DNA of 64,000 bases. It comes from Flavobacteriales bacterium (lineage in GTDB: Bacteria > Bacteroidota > Bacteroidia > UBA10329). A program made the position numbers and the translations under genes. A model generated the notes under the pieces. That model saw nothing but the letters and a program-made list of their open reading frames with translations, ran no database searches and was not told the DNA's origin. Shown here one piece after another: positions 6,854 through 21,851 of this stretch. The stretch covers positions 1-64,000 of the forward strand of contig WGMW01000056.1 of assembly GCA_016124845.1 (NCBI GenBank), written 5' to 3'. Position 1 is the stretch's first letter; every line of letters starts with the position of its first letter.

Positions 6854-6946
6854 AAATCCCCCGGCCTTCGGCCACCCCCTTTTCAAGGGGGAATGAGCGT
6901 GGTTCCTCCTTGAAAAGGGGGTGCCGAGGAACGAGGCGGGGGATTT
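6854..6946. repeat. REPIN-like inverted pair of C/G-run palindromes
   Basis: A 93-bp element in the gap between the permease gene and the TolB-like gene. Two arms of about 40 bp face each other. Both begin AAATCCCCCG and reach CCCCCTTTTCAAGG when read inward, and each arm has its own small palindrome. The arms are closely similar but not identical (GGCCTTCGGCCA against GCCTCGTTCCTCGGCA), as in REPINs made of two diverged REP units. Related sequence occurs in coding DNA at 11211-11250 and around the DUF559 insertion at 19932-20407. Confidence 0.8.
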
Positions 6947-11142: not shown

Positions 11143-12062
11143 GAATCTGTTTTATTCTTTTGCTGTGTACGATCTCCATCTCAATGAAGGCGCAAACAAC
11201 AGCAGAAACAAGCTCCCCTTCCCTTCGAGGAGGGGTTGGGGGTGGGGCTTCCATTCGTGTTCTCACGTGGAACATTTTCATGCGGCCGCATGCCATCCTG
11301 TACGATGGACAATTCAGACGTGCGAAAGCTATCGGTGAACTGATGAAGGATGAGAATTACGACATCATCCTGTTTCAGGAAGCGTTCGGAAAAACGAGCA
11401 GAAAGAAACTGCGCAAAGCATTGCAAGGTGCTTATCCGTACGAGATCGAACCCAAGAACAATGGAAAACTGGTGAACAGCGGGCTTTGGGTTTTGAGCAA
11501 GCACGAGATCAAGGAACAAGACTTCATCTTTTACAATAATTGCAAAGTGAGCGACTGCCAATCGTCCAAAGGTGCGGTGCTGATTGAAGTGGAGATCAAC
11601 GGACAGCGTTACCAGATTCTCAGCACGCATGTGCAAGCCGAGGATGGCAAGGAGTTTGCTCAAGTGCGGCAACTCCAGTTCAAAATGATAGACCAGTTTT
11701 TAAAGGATCACCAAAAACCCGAAGTGCCACAGTTCATCTTGGGCGACCTCAACACGCCTTTCGATTCTATTGCAGAATACAAAAGCATGCTTGAAATCCT
11801 GAATGCAAGCGATGGAAAAGTTTCCTTGGTAGGAGCGGATGAACTGAGCATTGACCGACCGATAACCTGGGGGTGCGCCAACAACGACATGATCAAAAAG
11901 AAATGGCGCGGAAACGTGCAGCTTTTGGATTACGCATTGCAGCGCGAAACAGGCTATCCCTTCAAACTGAGACGTGAGTTGAAGACCTACACGAAACAAT
12001 GGTCGAAAAAACGGAAACATCTGTCCGATCATTACGCCATTTCGCTGACCATACTTCCTTAA
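11139..12062 (+). CDS. Secreted endonuclease/exonuclease/phosphatase-family hydrolase
   Basis: A 307-residue exported protein with a signal peptide (residues 1-18, MRICFILLLCTISISMKAQ). The DNase I/sphingomyelinase fold shows its metal and catalytic motifs: VLTWNIF (Asn), IILFQEAF (Glu), STHVQAE (His), FILGDLNTPFDS (Asp/Asn) and the terminal SDHYAIS (Asp-His). The closest general type is neutral sphingomyelinase/phospholipase C-like enzymes, but the substrate cannot be decided. Residues about 25-38 (SSPSLRGGVGGGAS) between the signal peptide and the fold are encoded by a dispersed C/G-rich palindrome, which adds a Gly/Ser linker without breaking the frame. Confidence 0.85.
   Translation: MRICFILLLCTISISMKAQTTAETSSPSLRGGVGGGASIRVLTWNIFMRPHAILYDGQFRRAKAIGELMKDENYDIILFQEAFGKTSRKKLRKALQGAYPYEIEPKNNGKLVNSGLWVLSKHEIKEQDFIFYNNCKVSDCQSSKGAVLIEVEINGQRYQILSTHVQAEDGKEFAQVRQLQFKMIDQFLKDHQKPEVPQFILGDLNTPFDSIAEYKSMLEILNASDGKVSLVGADELSIDRPITWGCANNDMIKKKWRGNVQLLDYALQRETGYPFKLRRELKTYTKQWSKKRKHLSDHYAISLTILP
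11211..11250. repeat. C/G-rich palindromic repeat inside a coding region
   Basis: A 40-bp repeat, AGCTCCCC at one end and GGGGCTT at the other, with an inner TTCGAGG turn. It belongs to the same general family as 20376-20407 and 6854-6946. It is inserted in frame in the EEP-family gene just after the signal peptide. Confidence 0.7.
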
Positions 12063-17254: not shown

Positions 17255-18280
17255 ATGAAAAGAACTAAACAATTAGAACAAGCAGTAAAAGAACGGATAC
17301 TCGTTCTGGATGGCGCGATGGGCACCATGATCCAGCGCTACAAACTGGAAGAAGAGGATTATCGTGGTGAGCGTTTCAAGGATTCACCAAAACCGTTGAA
17401 AGGAAACAACGACCTGCTTTCCATCACACGGCCAGAGATCATCAAGGAGATCCATGCCAAGTATTTCGAAGCAGGCGCAGACATTGCCGAGACGAACACA
17501 TTCAGCGGAACAACCATCGCCCAAGCGGATTATGGCTTGGAGGACGCGGTGTACGACATCAATTACTACTCGGCCAAGATCGCACGCGAAGTAGCGGATG
17601 AATTCACGGCCAAAGAGCCGAACAAACCGCGATTTGTGGCAGGTTCCATGGGTCCGACAAACCGAACGGCTTCGCTTTCACCTGATGTGAACGATCCTGG
17701 TTTCCGTGCTGTGAGCTTCGATGATCTACGAATTGCCTACAAGGAACAGGCAAAGGCGTTGGTTGATGGCGGTGTAGATATTCTTCTGGTTGAAACCGTG
17801 TTCGACACACTCAATGCCAAAGCAGCACTTTTCGCCATCGAAGAACTGTTTGAAGAGATCGGCTACAGATTACCGATCATGGTCTCAGGAACCATCACAG
17901 ATGCCAGCGGCAGAACGCTCTCGGGACAGACAACCGAAGCCTTTCTCATATCCATCTCGCACATTCCATTGTTCAGCGTTGGATTGAACTGCGCGCTTGG
18001 TGCGGCTCAGCTTCGTCCGTACTTGCAAGTGCTGGCGAGTAAAGCTCCGTTCGGTGTCAGCGCACACCCGAATGCAGGTCTTCCGAACGAATTCGGAGAA
18101 TATGATGAAACGCCCGAAATGATGGCCGCTCAGATCGAGGAATTCCTGAAAGAGAATTTGGTGAATGTGATCGGTGGTTGCTGTGGCACTACGCCAGCGC
18201 ATATTAAAGCCATTGCTGAGGTGGCTGCGAGGTATAGTCCACGGTCAATAGACCATAGTCCACAGAAGTCCGAACTATGA
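17255..18280 (+). CDS. metH: Methionine synthase part 1: homocysteine-binding domain
   Basis: 341 residues equal to the N-terminal homocysteine S-methyltransferase barrel of cobalamin-dependent MetH. It binds zinc-activated homocysteine, the acceptor of the methyl group. Motifs are [20 protein letters not shown] at the start, [20 protein letters not shown], and the zinc ligands in GLNCALG (about 247) and [11 protein letters not shown] (about 308). The split into two genes is usual in Flavobacteriales. Expression is controlled by the SAM riboswitch upstream. The last 15 residues ([15 protein letters not shown]) are encoded by the left inverted repeat of the IVP cassette, so the native C-terminus was replaced or extended. 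Confidence 0.93.
18237..18265 (+). repeat. Left inverted repeat of the IVP cassette
   Basis: 29 bp beginning GTCCACGGTCAATAG and ending GTCCACAG. It matches the reverse complement of 18697-18725 at 24 of 29 positions. It lies inside the 3' end of metH part 1. Confidence 0.85.
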
Positions 18281-18325
18281 ACCCTTCCGTGGTCTATCGA
18301 TCATGATCTGAACGCTTTAAAAACA

Positions 18326-18688
18326 ATGGCATTTAAATTCGAAAATCTGAATGTTTGGCAGAAATCGTTGGATTATACTGCCTCTATTCATGAACTGACA
18401 TTGAAATTTCCAAAGGATGAATTGTACATTCTTACTTCACAGATCAAACGAGCAGCAGACAGTATAAATCTCAACATTGCAGAAGGGTCAACTGGTCAGT
18501 CAGATGCAGAATTCGGTAAGTTTCTCGGCTATGCCATCCGATCGGCAATTGAGGTTGTGTCTTGTTTGTATGTTGGACAAAAACGGGGATTAATCAGTGA
18601 AGATGACTTTCAGCGTCTTTACAGCGAGGCAGAAGAAATTATAAGAATGACCCAAGCCCTCCGCAACTCAATCAAATCAAAAAAATAA
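18326..18688 (+). CDS. Four-helix-bundle protein (IVP / S23 family)
   Basis: A 120-residue cytoplasmic protein of the 23S-rRNA intervening-sequence (IVP, TIGR02436-type) four-helix-bundle family. Signature segments are [57 protein letters not shown] and the final helix [18 protein letters not shown]. The family includes proteins encoded inside 23S rRNA genes and the bAvd accessory subunit of diversity-generating retroelements; most copies have no known role. Here it separates the two metH parts in the same direction and is bounded by 29-bp inverted repeats, so it looks like a small mobile cassette rather than a methionine gene. Confidence 0.92.
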
Positions 18689-18696
18689 CTGCCCGA

Positions 18697-18725
18697 CTGT
18701 GGACAATCGACTATCGACCATGGAC
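18697..18725 (+). repeat. Right inverted repeat of the IVP cassette
   Basis: 29 bp beginning CTGTGGACAATCG and ending ACCATGGAC, the imperfect reverse complement of 18237-18265. Its ATG at 18720-18722 is the likely start codon of metH part 2. Confidence 0.85.
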
Positions 18726-21700
18726 TCTAAGACAAAAATCCCACCACTACAGTTATCAGGTCTTGAACCACTCCTCATCTACGAAGGTTCCAACTTCATC
18801 AATGTGGGCGAACGGACCAACGTCACAGGGTCGCGCATGTTTCTGCGCCTCATTAAGGAAGAAAAGTATGATGAGGCATTGGCCGTTGCGCGGGACCAAG
18901 TAGAAGGTGGAGCACAAGTGCTGGATGTGAACATGGATGAAGGAATGATCGATGGCAAAGAGGCCATGGTCAAATTCCTTCACCTCTTGGCTGCCGAACC
19001 CGACATTGCTCGCATTCCGATCATGATCGATAGCTCCAAATGGCAGATCATCGAAGCTGGTCTGCAATGCGTGCAGGGAAAATCCGTGGTCAATTCCATC
19101 AGCCTAAAAGAAGGCGAGGAACAGTTCGTTGATCACGCGAAAAAGGTTAAGCGCTATGGCGCAGCCGTCATTGTGATGGCATTTGATGAACAAGGACAGG
19201 CCGATAGCTACGAACGCAGGATCGAGATCTGCAAACGTTCGTACGACATCCTCGTGAACAAGGTCGGTTTCGCTCGTCAAGACATCATCTTCGACCCGAA
19301 TATCTTCCCTGTGGCAACAGGAATGGAAGAGCACAACAATAACGCGCTCGACTTCTTCAACGCCACCAAATGGATAAAAGAGAACTTGCCAGGAGCCAAG
19401 GTGAGCGGTGGGGTGAGCAACGTCTCGTTCTCATTCCGAGGGAACAACCCTGTGCGTGAAGCGATGCATTCCGCGTTCCTCTATCATGGTATCAAAAACG
19501 GCATGGACATGGGAATCGTCAACCCTACCATGCTGGAGGTGTATGATGAGATTCCGAAAGATCTTTTGGAGCATGTGGAAGATGTACTCCTGAACCGCAG
19601 GCCAGATGCAACCGAACGCCTGCTTTCATTTGCCGAAACAGTTGTAGGAAAAGCCAAGGAGAAAAAGGAAGACCTCACTTGGCGACAAGCGCCCGTGGAA
19701 GAACGCCTTTCACACGCCTTGGTCAAAGGTATTGCCGACTTTGTGGAGGAAGATGTGGAGGAAGCCCGTCTGAAAGCAGAACGGCCGCTACACGTCATTG
19801 AAGGTCCGCTGATGGACGGCATGAACGTGGTCGGAGATCTTTTCGGAGCAGGAAAGATGTTCCTGCCGCAGGTGGTAAAATCCGCGAGGGTGATGAAGAA
19901 AGCTGTCGCCTACCTACTTCCTTACATGGATGCCCCCCCGACCCCCCAAAGGGGGGACAGCCCCCTCAATCCCCCGATGGGGGAAGAAAGTGGCTCGGAG
20001 AAACCGGGTTATATGACCGCAGATCCTGTTTACTATGAGAAAATCAAGGATTACGTTAAGAAGCATCGCAGCCAGCCAACGCAAGCTGAAGATGCTTTAT
20101 GGCAAGCACTTCGAAACAAGCAACTAGACGGCTACAAATTCAGGCGGCAACATATCATCGGAAAGTATATCGCTGATTTCGTCTGTCTCCAACAACATTT
20201 GATCATTGAAGTCGATGGACTTATTCACCAACTTCCTGATATTAAAGAAGCCGATGAAAGCCGTGAAGCATGGCTAAAAGAAATGGGATTTCGCATCATT
20301 CGTTTTTCCAACTCTCAGGTACTTGTCGAAAGAGATGCCGTAATTGAGGAAATCCGAAAACATTTGATCGAAGCACCAGCTCCCCCTTTGGGGGGAAGGG
20401 GGGCTGGTAAGATCTTATTGGCAACGGTAAAAGGTGATGTGCACGACATCGGTAAGAATATCGTTGGCGTAGTACTCGCTTGCAACAATTATGAGGTCAT
20501 CGATCTTGGCGTGATGGTTCCTGCGGAGAAGATCCTTGCGGAAGCGAAAAAGCAGCAAGTGGATGTCATCGGATTGAGTGGACTTATCACACCTTCATTG
20601 GATGAGATGGTGCATCTCGCCAAAGAAATGGAGCATGATGGGTTCGATATTCCGTTGCTGATCGGAGGTGCCACCACTTCGCGCGTTCACACGGCCGTGA
20701 AGATTGACCCGCAGTACAAGAAAGGGCAGACGGTACACGTATTGGACGCTTCACGTTCGGTAACGGTTGTGGAAAGCCTACTTGGTCAGAAGAAACAGGG
20801 TTTTGTGGAGAACATTCAAGCAGAGTATGACCAACTGCGTGAGATGCACGCTAAGAAACGAGGACAGAAGGAGTTCATTTCGTTGGAAGAAGCACGTGCC
20901 AATAAGTTCGAAATCGACTGGAAGCCCGAAGACCTTGCCAGACCGAAGAAACTCGGCATCACCGAATTCAAGGAATTCCCGCTGAACGAATTGGTGGATT
21001 ACATCGACTGGACACCCTTCTTCCAAACGTGGGAACTGGCTGGCCGTTATCCGAAGATATTGGAGGATGAAGTGGTCGGAACCGAAGCAACAAAACTTTT
21101 TGCTGATGCTCAATCGATGCTTCAGAAAATCGTTTCGGAGAAGTGGATCACAGCAAGTGGTGTGGTCGGTCTTTGGCCTGCAAATGCGGTTGGAGATGAT
21201 TTGGAGTTGTACACGGATGAAAGTCGATCTGAAGTACTTTCAACCGTTCATTCATTGCGTCAGCAGTCCAAAAAAGCAGCAGGTGTTGCAAATCTCGCTT
21301 TAGCTGATTTTATAGCGCCAAAAGAAACTGGCCTTCAAGATTACATGGGAGGATTTACAGTTACCGCTGGTCTGGGAATTGAGAAGAAGTTGGAGGAATT
21401 CGCTGCCGACCATGATGACTATAGCAGCATCATGCTAAAAGCCTTGGCCGACCGATTGGCCGAAGCATTTGCTGAAAAACTACACGAAATTGTACGGAAA
21501 GACGTTTGGGGTTACGAGCCTGAAGAATCGCTTTCAAATGAAGAATTGATCCGCGAGAAGTACCGAGGAATTCGCCCAGCGCCAGGCTACCCGGCCTGTC
21601 CCGACCATACCGAAAAACCTGAACTGTTCCGTTTACTCAATGCCACAGAGATCACAGGCGTAAGCCTCACCGAGAGTTTGGCCATGATGCCAGCAGCATC

Positions 21701-21851
21701 TGTCAGCGGTTGGTATTTCGGGCATCCTGAAAGCAAGTATTTCGGACTTGGTAAGATTGAGAAAGATCAGGTGGAGGATTATGCTTCGCGTAAAGGAATG
21801 GAGGTCAAAGAAGCTGAACGTTGGTTGAGTTCCAGCTTGAATTATGATTAG
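18720..21851 (+). CDS. metH: Methionine synthase part 2 with in-frame DUF559 nuclease insertion
   Basis: 1043 residues from the ATG at 18720 (a GTG at 18699 is less likely). Order of domains: methyltetrahydrofolate-binding domain ([16 protein letters not shown] to about 330), cobalamin cap helices ending [10 protein letters not shown] (about 403), a foreign insert (about 404-561), the cobalamin-binding domain [20 protein letters not shown] with the His ligand (about 575), [13 protein letters not shown] and [10 protein letters not shown], then the SAM-dependent reactivation domain with [13 protein letters not shown] normal protein without the insert would have about 885 residues. All host motifs on both sides are intact and in frame, so the enzyme may still work, with the nuclease domain bulging from a linker. 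The start codon is provided by the IVP cassette repeat. Confidence 0.93.
19932..19989. repeat. Left C/G-run repeat of the DUF559 cassette
   Basis: GCCCCCCCGACCCCCC-AAA-GGGGGG then ACAGCCCCCTC and CCCCCGATGGGGG: two nested C-run/G-run palindromes. It is translated as [18 protein letters not shown] within MetH. Confidence 0.8.
20376..20407. repeat. Right C/G-run palindrome of the DUF559 cassette
   Basis: 32 bp with outer CCAGC/GCTGG ends and an inner CCCCCTTTGGGGG palindrome. It is translated as [10 protein letters not shown]. Read on the minus strand it resembles the start of the left repeat (CCCCCC-AAA-GGGGG). Confidence 0.8.

Follow-up and report, generated by a model that had tools for sequence, protein, structure and literature searches.

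In-frame, hairpin-ended DUF559 nuclease insertions in bacterial enzymes appear to point to an undescribed kind of mobile element

Background

Several elements that resemble parts of the locus described here are already known separately: REP sequences with their RAYT enzymes, the palindromic elements that lie in frame within genes of Rickettsia (RPE), the EDxHD homing nucleases, and DUF559 itself as a Vsr-like family. To our knowledge, DUF559 is a common family without an agreed role, and we know of no described system that matches the whole combination reported below. In the open-access literature, we found no text that ties DUF559 to palindromic repeats, and none on unspliced nuclease cassettes in enzymes.

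The REP/RAYT systems (REPtrons, REPINs) share with the DUF559 cassettes a gene located between facing short palindromes, dispersed solo and paired copies of these palindromes, and a repeat number that is tied to the gene. However, RAYT is an HUH tyrosine transposase whereas the cassette enzyme is an EDxHD/Vsr-like nuclease; an HUH (Y1) domain is absent from the cassette, the sole domain of which, by Pfam, is DUF559 with its relative MTES_1575. Furthermore, the cassette hairpins are C/G-run polypyrimidine/polypurine repeats, and one group of cassettes is located in frame inside proteins. The analogy with REP and RAYT, which was drawn in a preliminary description of this locus made from the sequence alone, thus holds for the anatomy and the copy-number relation but not for the type of enzyme. 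According to the accessible portion of one report, transposase genes accompany GTAG REPs, whereas CGTC REPs have none (PMC3733652).

The EDxHD homing endonucleases (I-Bth0305I), together with the introns and inteins that carry them, resemble the cassettes in their fold and in their occurrence at recurrent sites of conserved housekeeping genes, but the cassette nuclease has no intein or intron around it: DNA hairpins form its borders, and it remains part of the host protein. In the available part of another study, a DUF559 gene of Thermosynechococcus is assigned to the EDxHD family (PMC9403480). The RPEs are also short palindromic elements that are found in frame in unrelated genes; unlike the cassettes, they encode a conserved peptide, and the accessible text on them does not mention a nuclease (PMC10969869). 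The RPE-like part of the present system is the solo repeat, found in frame in IleRS and AroA, to which the nuclease cassette is an addition. Among the Vsr-like repair nucleases, NGO0050 is the nearest solved structure, and VsrA of Caulobacter contains a DUF559 domain; these enzymes are described as standalone, and neither repeats nor mobility is reported in the portion of the source that is accessible (PMC12907096).

Results and discussion

A nuclease cassette within MetH

The window, that is, the entire analysed stretch of 64,000 nucleotides from a Flavobacteriales bacterium (contig WGMW01000056.1), encodes a MetH protein that carries a DUF559 domain between its cap and cobalamin domains (Table 1). 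MetH is a split enzyme here, the Hcy domain being encoded by a separate gene (17255-18280), and has one match in its own genome at E<=1e-100. Counted from the ATG, the open frame encodes 1043 aa and is uninterrupted throughout; the Pfam domains follow the order Pterin_bind, B12-binding_2 (aa 326-399), DUF559 (aa 441-549), B12-binding (563-652) and Met_synt_B12. The DUF559 domain (PF04480) is recognized with E 1.6e-34 and 118.4 bits against a cut-off of 20.6, over positions 2-108 of the 109 in the profile. The arms of the terminal repeats (19934-19955 and 20382-20403) are 22 nt long, 91% complementary and spaced by 426 nt. The preliminary description had proposed a complete DUF559 domain, an insert that is in frame and free of stops, and facing C/G-run palindromes that bound it; all three features were confirmed, the last against 2 of 816 pseudo-pairs by chance. 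The insert, which had been placed at 19932-20407, spans about 19932-20405 after correction of its edges, and the further repeats proposed at 6854-6946 and 11211-11250 are present within slightly narrower limits, their kinship being judged by eye. In a structural model of a 347 aa segment of MetH (mean pLDDT 77, pTM 0.47), the cap, nuclease and cobalamin parts are predicted to form helices and strands, whereas the linkers, which correspond to the translated repeats, are of low confidence.

Table 1. Positions of the MetH cassette and of related repeats in the window
Feature	Coordinates	Strand	Basis
Host: C-terminal part of MetH (pterin, cap, cobalamin and activation domains) with in-frame insert	18720..21851	+	
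Inserted cassette, stop-free and in frame	19932..20405	+	
5' terminal repeat: C-run tail and C6-AAA-G6 hairpin	19933..19956	+	
Second hairpin of the same type, 5' side	19961..19983 (about)	+	
DUF559 (PF04480) nuclease domain with catalytic E, D, E-x-D and H	20040..20366	+	Pfam, AlphaFold2, Foldseek
3' terminal repeat, facing the 5' one: hairpin and G-run tail	20382..20405	+	
Two facing repeats with a short, gene-free spacer (REPIN/MITE-like form)	6858..6942	.	kinship by eye
Solo repeat (hairpin and G-run tail)	11215..11247	.	kinship by eye

A MetH match was detected in 33 relatives, 29 of which yielded the locus. The linker between two fixed motifs comprises 47-58 aa in all 29, including five congeners with 77-88% identical MetH, compared to 196 aa in the window; therefore, the window cassette is an insertion. 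Because about ten residues of the host linker are missing or altered at the insert, a clean target-site duplication is not readable, nor is an exact one, the linkers being of unequal length.

The genome that contains the window has four PF04480 matches. Apart from the MetH cassette, these include an in-frame cassette inside the sole LeuRS match at E<=1e-100 and a free-standing gene of 127 aa, both with facing C/G hairpins. LeuRS site 1 is cassette-free in all six congeners read, one of which (G005) has 14 extra residues there. The fourth match (C19, locus L004) was treated as unrelated to the family; it is weak and partial, and the surrounding stretch that was read contains no C/G hairpin.

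Host proteins and insertion sites

In 59 genomes, that of the window included, 20 of the 67 DUF559 matches that score at least 80 bits are part of open frames no shorter than 500 aa; a match at E<=1e-15 is present in 152 of the 395 genomes of the class. Two sets of loci were analyzed. The class survey consists of 148 distinct DUF559 domains from these genomes and is non-random, in that, among the matches listed, places in long frames were added and standalone ones were included only in part. The named set consists of 82 domains from 80 named loci, among the matches listed, and overlaps the class survey at two loci at least (L255 with L078, L273 with L093); 77 of the 82 are in frame, again among the matches listed, and the set is biased because the query was of the in-frame type. 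Among the 85 in-frame calls of the class survey, doubtful ones are L042 (frame running into masked N), L053 (through more repeats), L033 (short) and L038 (N-terminal junction only).

The occurrence of DUF559 in frame within unrelated proteins, anticipated in the preliminary description, extends to at least 22 host families identified by Pfam. These include LeuRS, IleRS, MetRS, RecJ, RecG, MutS, UvrA, HsdR, two Eco57I-type enzymes and one of type ISP, MetH, the acetyl-CoA synthetase AcsA, isobutyryl-CoA-mutase-like fusions, adenine deaminase, CoA-transferase III, TsaD, a SpoIIE-type phosphatase, CinA and an M23 peptidase, the finer names such as IleRS, HsdR and isobutyryl-CoA mutase being interpretations of domain sets. 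In 3 of the 22 families, namely, HisF, pseudouridine synthase and N-formylglutamate amidohydrolase (FGase), the fusion is terminal rather than internal. Pfam recognized no host family in two of the scanned frames (L074, L140). An intein was considered and rejected, no splicing domain having been found: intein domains are absent from the Pfam matches of the window MetH (E<=0.001), and Hint/splicing domains from those of 29 other DUF559-bearing frames scanned (E<=1e-3; E<=1e-8 in one batch).

Within host proteins, the cassettes often occupy recurrent sites. MetH is hit at four different places, as judged by motif, and two MetH proteins (L247, L292) contain two cassettes each. The empty sites that had been expected in relatives were found not only for MetH, in 29 of 29 loci, but also for RecJ, for which three of the six genomes with a match in one genus (seven searched) are filled and three are empty. 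The contrary case named in the preliminary description, the same site widely filled without flanking repeats, is also seen at the MetH cap/B12 site, which accounts for 44 of the 82 named-set domains among the matches listed, many of them from Flavobacteriaceae as judged by record title; both hairpins are kept in 13 of the 43 testable copies at this site, compared to 20 of the 31 other in-frame copies of the named set. The MetH cap/B12 inserts in many Flavobacteriaceae look like old, fixed residents with decaying ends.

Tandem arrangements were observed at two loci: two adjacent DUF559 genes with 95% identical DNA at L150, in a genome with 11 matches, and two with 87% identical DNA at L085, in a genome with seven.

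Terminal hairpins

Hairpins were scored within 220 nt by a strict rule (perfect arm of at least 6, loop of 3-10, C-rich pyrimidine arm), so that some repeats which the eye recognizes are overlooked because their arms are shorter or their loops longer (L344, L350). By this rule, hairpins flank both sides of 91 of the 146 DUF559 loci (two of the 148 were too close to the locus end), comprising 58 of 85 in-frame and 33 of 61 standalone copies; at least one side lacks a hairpin in 27 and 28, respectively. Elsewhere in such loci, hairpins occur in 27 of 1632 single control windows and on both sides of 2 of 816 pseudo-pairs. For other genes, both sides are flanked in 1 of 363 cases (upstream 8, downstream 16), and for GIY-YIG nuclease genes of related genomes in 0 of 22, eight of 30 loci that were cut by contig ends having been skipped. 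DUF559 genes are thus strongly enriched beside such repeats, in agreement with the link that had been suggested earlier. In the named set, on which the rule was not set, both sides are flanked in 33 of 74 in-frame and 2 of 5 standalone copies, among the matches listed, compared to 16 of 672 windows and 0 of 336 pseudo-pairs in the control. Twelve DUF559 records from plasmids of Cyanobacteriota, Alphaproteobacteria and Deinococcota, analyzed with 260-nt windows, have a hairpin upstream in nine cases and downstream in eight (control, 5 of 192 windows).

By eye, the recurring tail beside the palindrome is a C/G run (ACCTCCCCCAACCCC...). In the in-frame copies, this tail is typically located on the outside (5' side: outside 78, inside 6, unclear 30; 3' side: 78, 8 and 29). 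The standalone copies lean the opposite way (5' side: outside 11, inside 23, unclear 13; 3' side: 13, 19 and 16).

The standalone plasmid genes have diverse neighbors. In two Deinococcus plasmids, they are found at differing positions within the hpa (4-hydroxyphenylacetate) cluster (L343, L348); in a Sphingomonas plasmid, the gene is located between transhydrogenase genes (L346); and in Synechocystis plasmids, such genes adjoin DUF1156/PglX methylase genes (L340, L341).

Dispersed solo repeats

The pattern CCCCYYYN{3,8}RRRGGGG has 82 matches in the genome that contains the window and two when reversed; the 82 are not as many separate hairpins because nested matches are counted. Over the 395 genomes of the class, the hairpin count, which likewise includes nested matches, correlates with the number of DUF559 copies (rho 0.51; -0.02 for the reversed pattern). 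The mean rises from 3.9 hairpins in the 243 genomes without DUF559, defined as having no match at E<=1e-15, to 11.5, 16.8, 29.4 and 63.8 in those with one, two, three and at least four copies, and the median is 8 in the 152 DUF559-positive genomes against 2 in the 243 others. When DUF559 was shuffled within families, the observed difference was reached in 0 of 2000 trials. There are exceptions, namely, hairpin-rich genomes without a DUF559 hit, one of them with 69 matches.

In the genome of the window, 38 hairpin positions were listed from 30 loci (two are listed twice, in overlapping loci), and 16 of the 38 are located inside open frames of at least 250 aa, not all of which need be genes. A solo repeat in IleRS adds 14 aa in frame and is absent from all five congeners read. 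In AroA (L322, 314-1687), several repeats together make up a compound in-frame insert, and other places in the genome match pieces of this insert. The alignment with four congeners breaks off after query residue 40 and resumes only from 96-104; the fifth aligns only from 103. Elsewhere, repeats without a nuclease occupy sites that are used by cassettes in other genomes, a MetH site in L184 and LeuRS site 2 in L193, as judged by eye. By eye, in-frame solo C/G repeats were also noted in open frames that read as DnaE (L335) and asparagine synthase (L305).

Conservation and history of the nuclease

The AlphaFold2 model of the DUF559 domain has a mean pLDDT of 84. Its best Foldseek match in the PDB is the putative endonuclease NGO0050 (3hrl; E 2e-8, 41% identity), followed by the EDxHD homing endonuclease I-Bth0305I (3r3p; E 3.4e-4, TM 0.67 and 0.71), with a weaker match to Vsr (E 0.08); in this predicted structure, the closest characterised fold is that of I-Bth0305I. 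The catalytic E, D, D and H, which we take to be the EDxHD family motif, are matched by the residues of the cassette. In sets chosen by score, which favours intact copies, one catalytic D is present in 161 of 162 in-frame copies and the E, the other D and the H in all 162, and the catalytic positions are kept in 68 of 68 standalone copies. From these residues and the modeled fold, we infer nuclease activity. The dN/dS of the nuclease is 0.03-0.15 in 20 of 23 within-site pairs, the other three being saturated at synonymous sites; most dS values exceed 1, so that these ratios are rough. The nuclease is kept by selection.

In a tree of the 148 domains, with few columns and many weak forks, the distinction between in-frame and standalone copies needs 12 changes, compared to a mean of 48 after shuffling, and none of 500 shuffles gave so low a value. 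A group of 70 domains (SH-aLRT 86) consists of 69 in-frame copies and one standalone copy, with hosts mixed inside, and 16 of the 85 copies labelled in-frame fall outside it. In a tree of 230 rows, 19 host sites need 38 changes, compared to a shuffled mean of 86, and the 18 copies at LeuRS site 1 need at least 12. The host sites are thus clustered but do not form single clades; therefore, the same sites have been filled repeatedly, or cassettes have been exchanged.

At four-fold sites, the counts for cassette and host are 34/42 and 100/218 in a RecJ pair (L045/L104; p 3e-5) and 30/41 and 64/204 in a MetH pair (L036/L084; p 9e-7). Over eight pairs, picked from 23 after the dN/dS results had been seen and hence not blind, the cassette is much closer than the host in two and weakly so in two, with no excess (p>0.05) in four. 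Such comparisons would fit transfer of the cassette apart from its host in some cases and vertical descent in others. The profiles of these eight pairs show no clear decay into the flanks of the kind expected for co-conversion tracts. With one genome per species compared, no movement was observed. Neither a near-identical donor nor a very recent jump from one host gene to another was detected; between different hosts, cassette identity reaches about 75%.

Alternative explanations

The hairpin repeats could instead be mobile by means of another enzyme, with DUF559 as captured cargo that is spread between two of them. Many solo repeats are indeed gene-less and occur also in genomes without a DUF559 hit at E<=1e-15; the repeats are so short that any flanked gene could be carried; and an unrelated 23S_rRNA_IVP gene beside the cassette also has facing repeats, of other sequence. 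Yet it is DUF559 that such repeats enclose, throughout Bacteroidota as well as in the 12 plasmid records from three other groups, GIY-YIG genes (0/22) and other genes (1/363) are hardly ever flanked on both sides, and gene and repeat copies rise together, so that we consider the cargo explanation unlikely. The notion of an old, useful, non-mobile domain accretion, with the repeats as low-complexity linker DNA, has in its favor the MetH cap/B12 site, which is filled in many Flavobacteriaceae, where both hairpins remain in only 13/43 and the nuclease is under purifying selection. Against it stand the empty sites in close relatives, the unrelated host families, at least 22 in number, and the nuclease-less repeats at the cassette sites of MetH and LeuRS; it appears highly improbable. 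Because sites are empty in close relatives, vertical descent of an ancient domain was rejected as the whole story but retained for some of the Flavobacteriaceae copies at the MetH cap/B12 site.

We attach almost no weight to the reading of DUF559 proteins as ordinary repair or restriction nucleases and of the hairpins as terminators or regulatory stems. Standalone copies are common (63 of 148 loci, among the matches listed), and, in the accessible part of its description, VsrA of Caulobacter bears a DUF559 domain (PMC12907096); however, regulatory stems account neither for copies in frame within enzymes, nor for the way in which the repeats are oriented (5' tail outside in 78 in-frame copies, inside in 6, unclear in 30), nor for the genome-wide link with solo repeats, and GIY-YIG nuclease genes are not flanked by hairpins on both sides (0/22). 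Equally implausible is an artefact of assembly or binning. Although draft or metagenome assemblies make up many of the genomes, and misbinning may affect two records of the named scan, one from Chloroflexota and one from Nitrotoga, the same arrangement is present in named isolates, for example Winogradskyella sediminis DSM 28134 (L222), Salegentibacter holothuriorum DSM 23405 (L236) and Flavobacterium cucumis DSM 18830 (L289), the frame and catalytic residues are conserved, and dN/dS is low.

A putative mobile element and its implications

The anatomy of the cassette, in-frame insertion at sites that are empty in relatives, the many hosts, the recurrent sites and the statistical link between gene and repeats within and across genomes are directly observed. 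We conclude that the MetH insert is probably one copy of a family of hairpin-ended DUF559 (EDxHD/Vsr-like) mobile elements with REP/RAYT-like anatomy and homing-like behaviour, tolerated without splicing. The earlier proposal of a selfish, repeat-ended nuclease that hides in linkers unspliced is supported by the comparison of sequences; that the nuclease drives the movement is a step that we infer.

The proposed element would consist of a DUF559 nuclease gene between two facing polypyrimidine/polypurine hairpin repeats, with the scattered solo repeats as its non-autonomous offspring. One group of the family, without a stop of its own, would persist inside essential enzymes, where it is translated by read-through as an additional domain of a loop or linker; the host protein would tolerate the unspliced insert, and frame-breaking loss would destroy the host gene. 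Cutting or nicking by the nuclease may take place at extruded hairpin ends, at empty target sites or at both, after which the hairpin-bounded cassette would be copied in by repair, the element surviving where the host tolerates a read-through domain. Recurrence at one site could result partly from homing-like transfer between homologous genes.

With somewhat less assurance, but still favoring it, we propose an undescribed mobile class in which an EDxHD-type nuclease builds and spreads its own hairpins in genomes of several phyla; its stop-less lineage in Bacteroidota would be an unspliced in-frame passenger that homes between homologous genes. Much C/G-run palindromic DNA, together with many odd insertions in the proteins of bacteria, would then derive from the solo offspring of this nuclease element. 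If this is true, DUF559 gains a role as the enzyme that drives a mobile element, dispersed C/G hairpin repeats gain an enzyme, as REP did with RAYT, and selfish DNA gains another lifestyle in essential genes that is neither intron nor intein but simply translated. The finding makes it possible to test how aminoacyl-tRNA synthetases, MutS, RecJ or MetH function when one of their loops holds a nuclease, and the occupied sites are naturally permissive positions that could be used to engineer proteins.

A parallel cassette with a different protein

A 23S_rRNA_IVP gene (18326-18688) is located between the two MetH genes (18233-18729) and has facing repeats of its own, with 33-nt arms that are 82% complementary. 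The two MetH genes abut in the congeners G007 and G003, and a gap is found there in G004, G008 and G006. The other two IVP genes of the genome also seem to have facing repeats, each of a different sequence as judged by eye, and the IVP gene with its palindromes forms a parallel cassette with a different protein.
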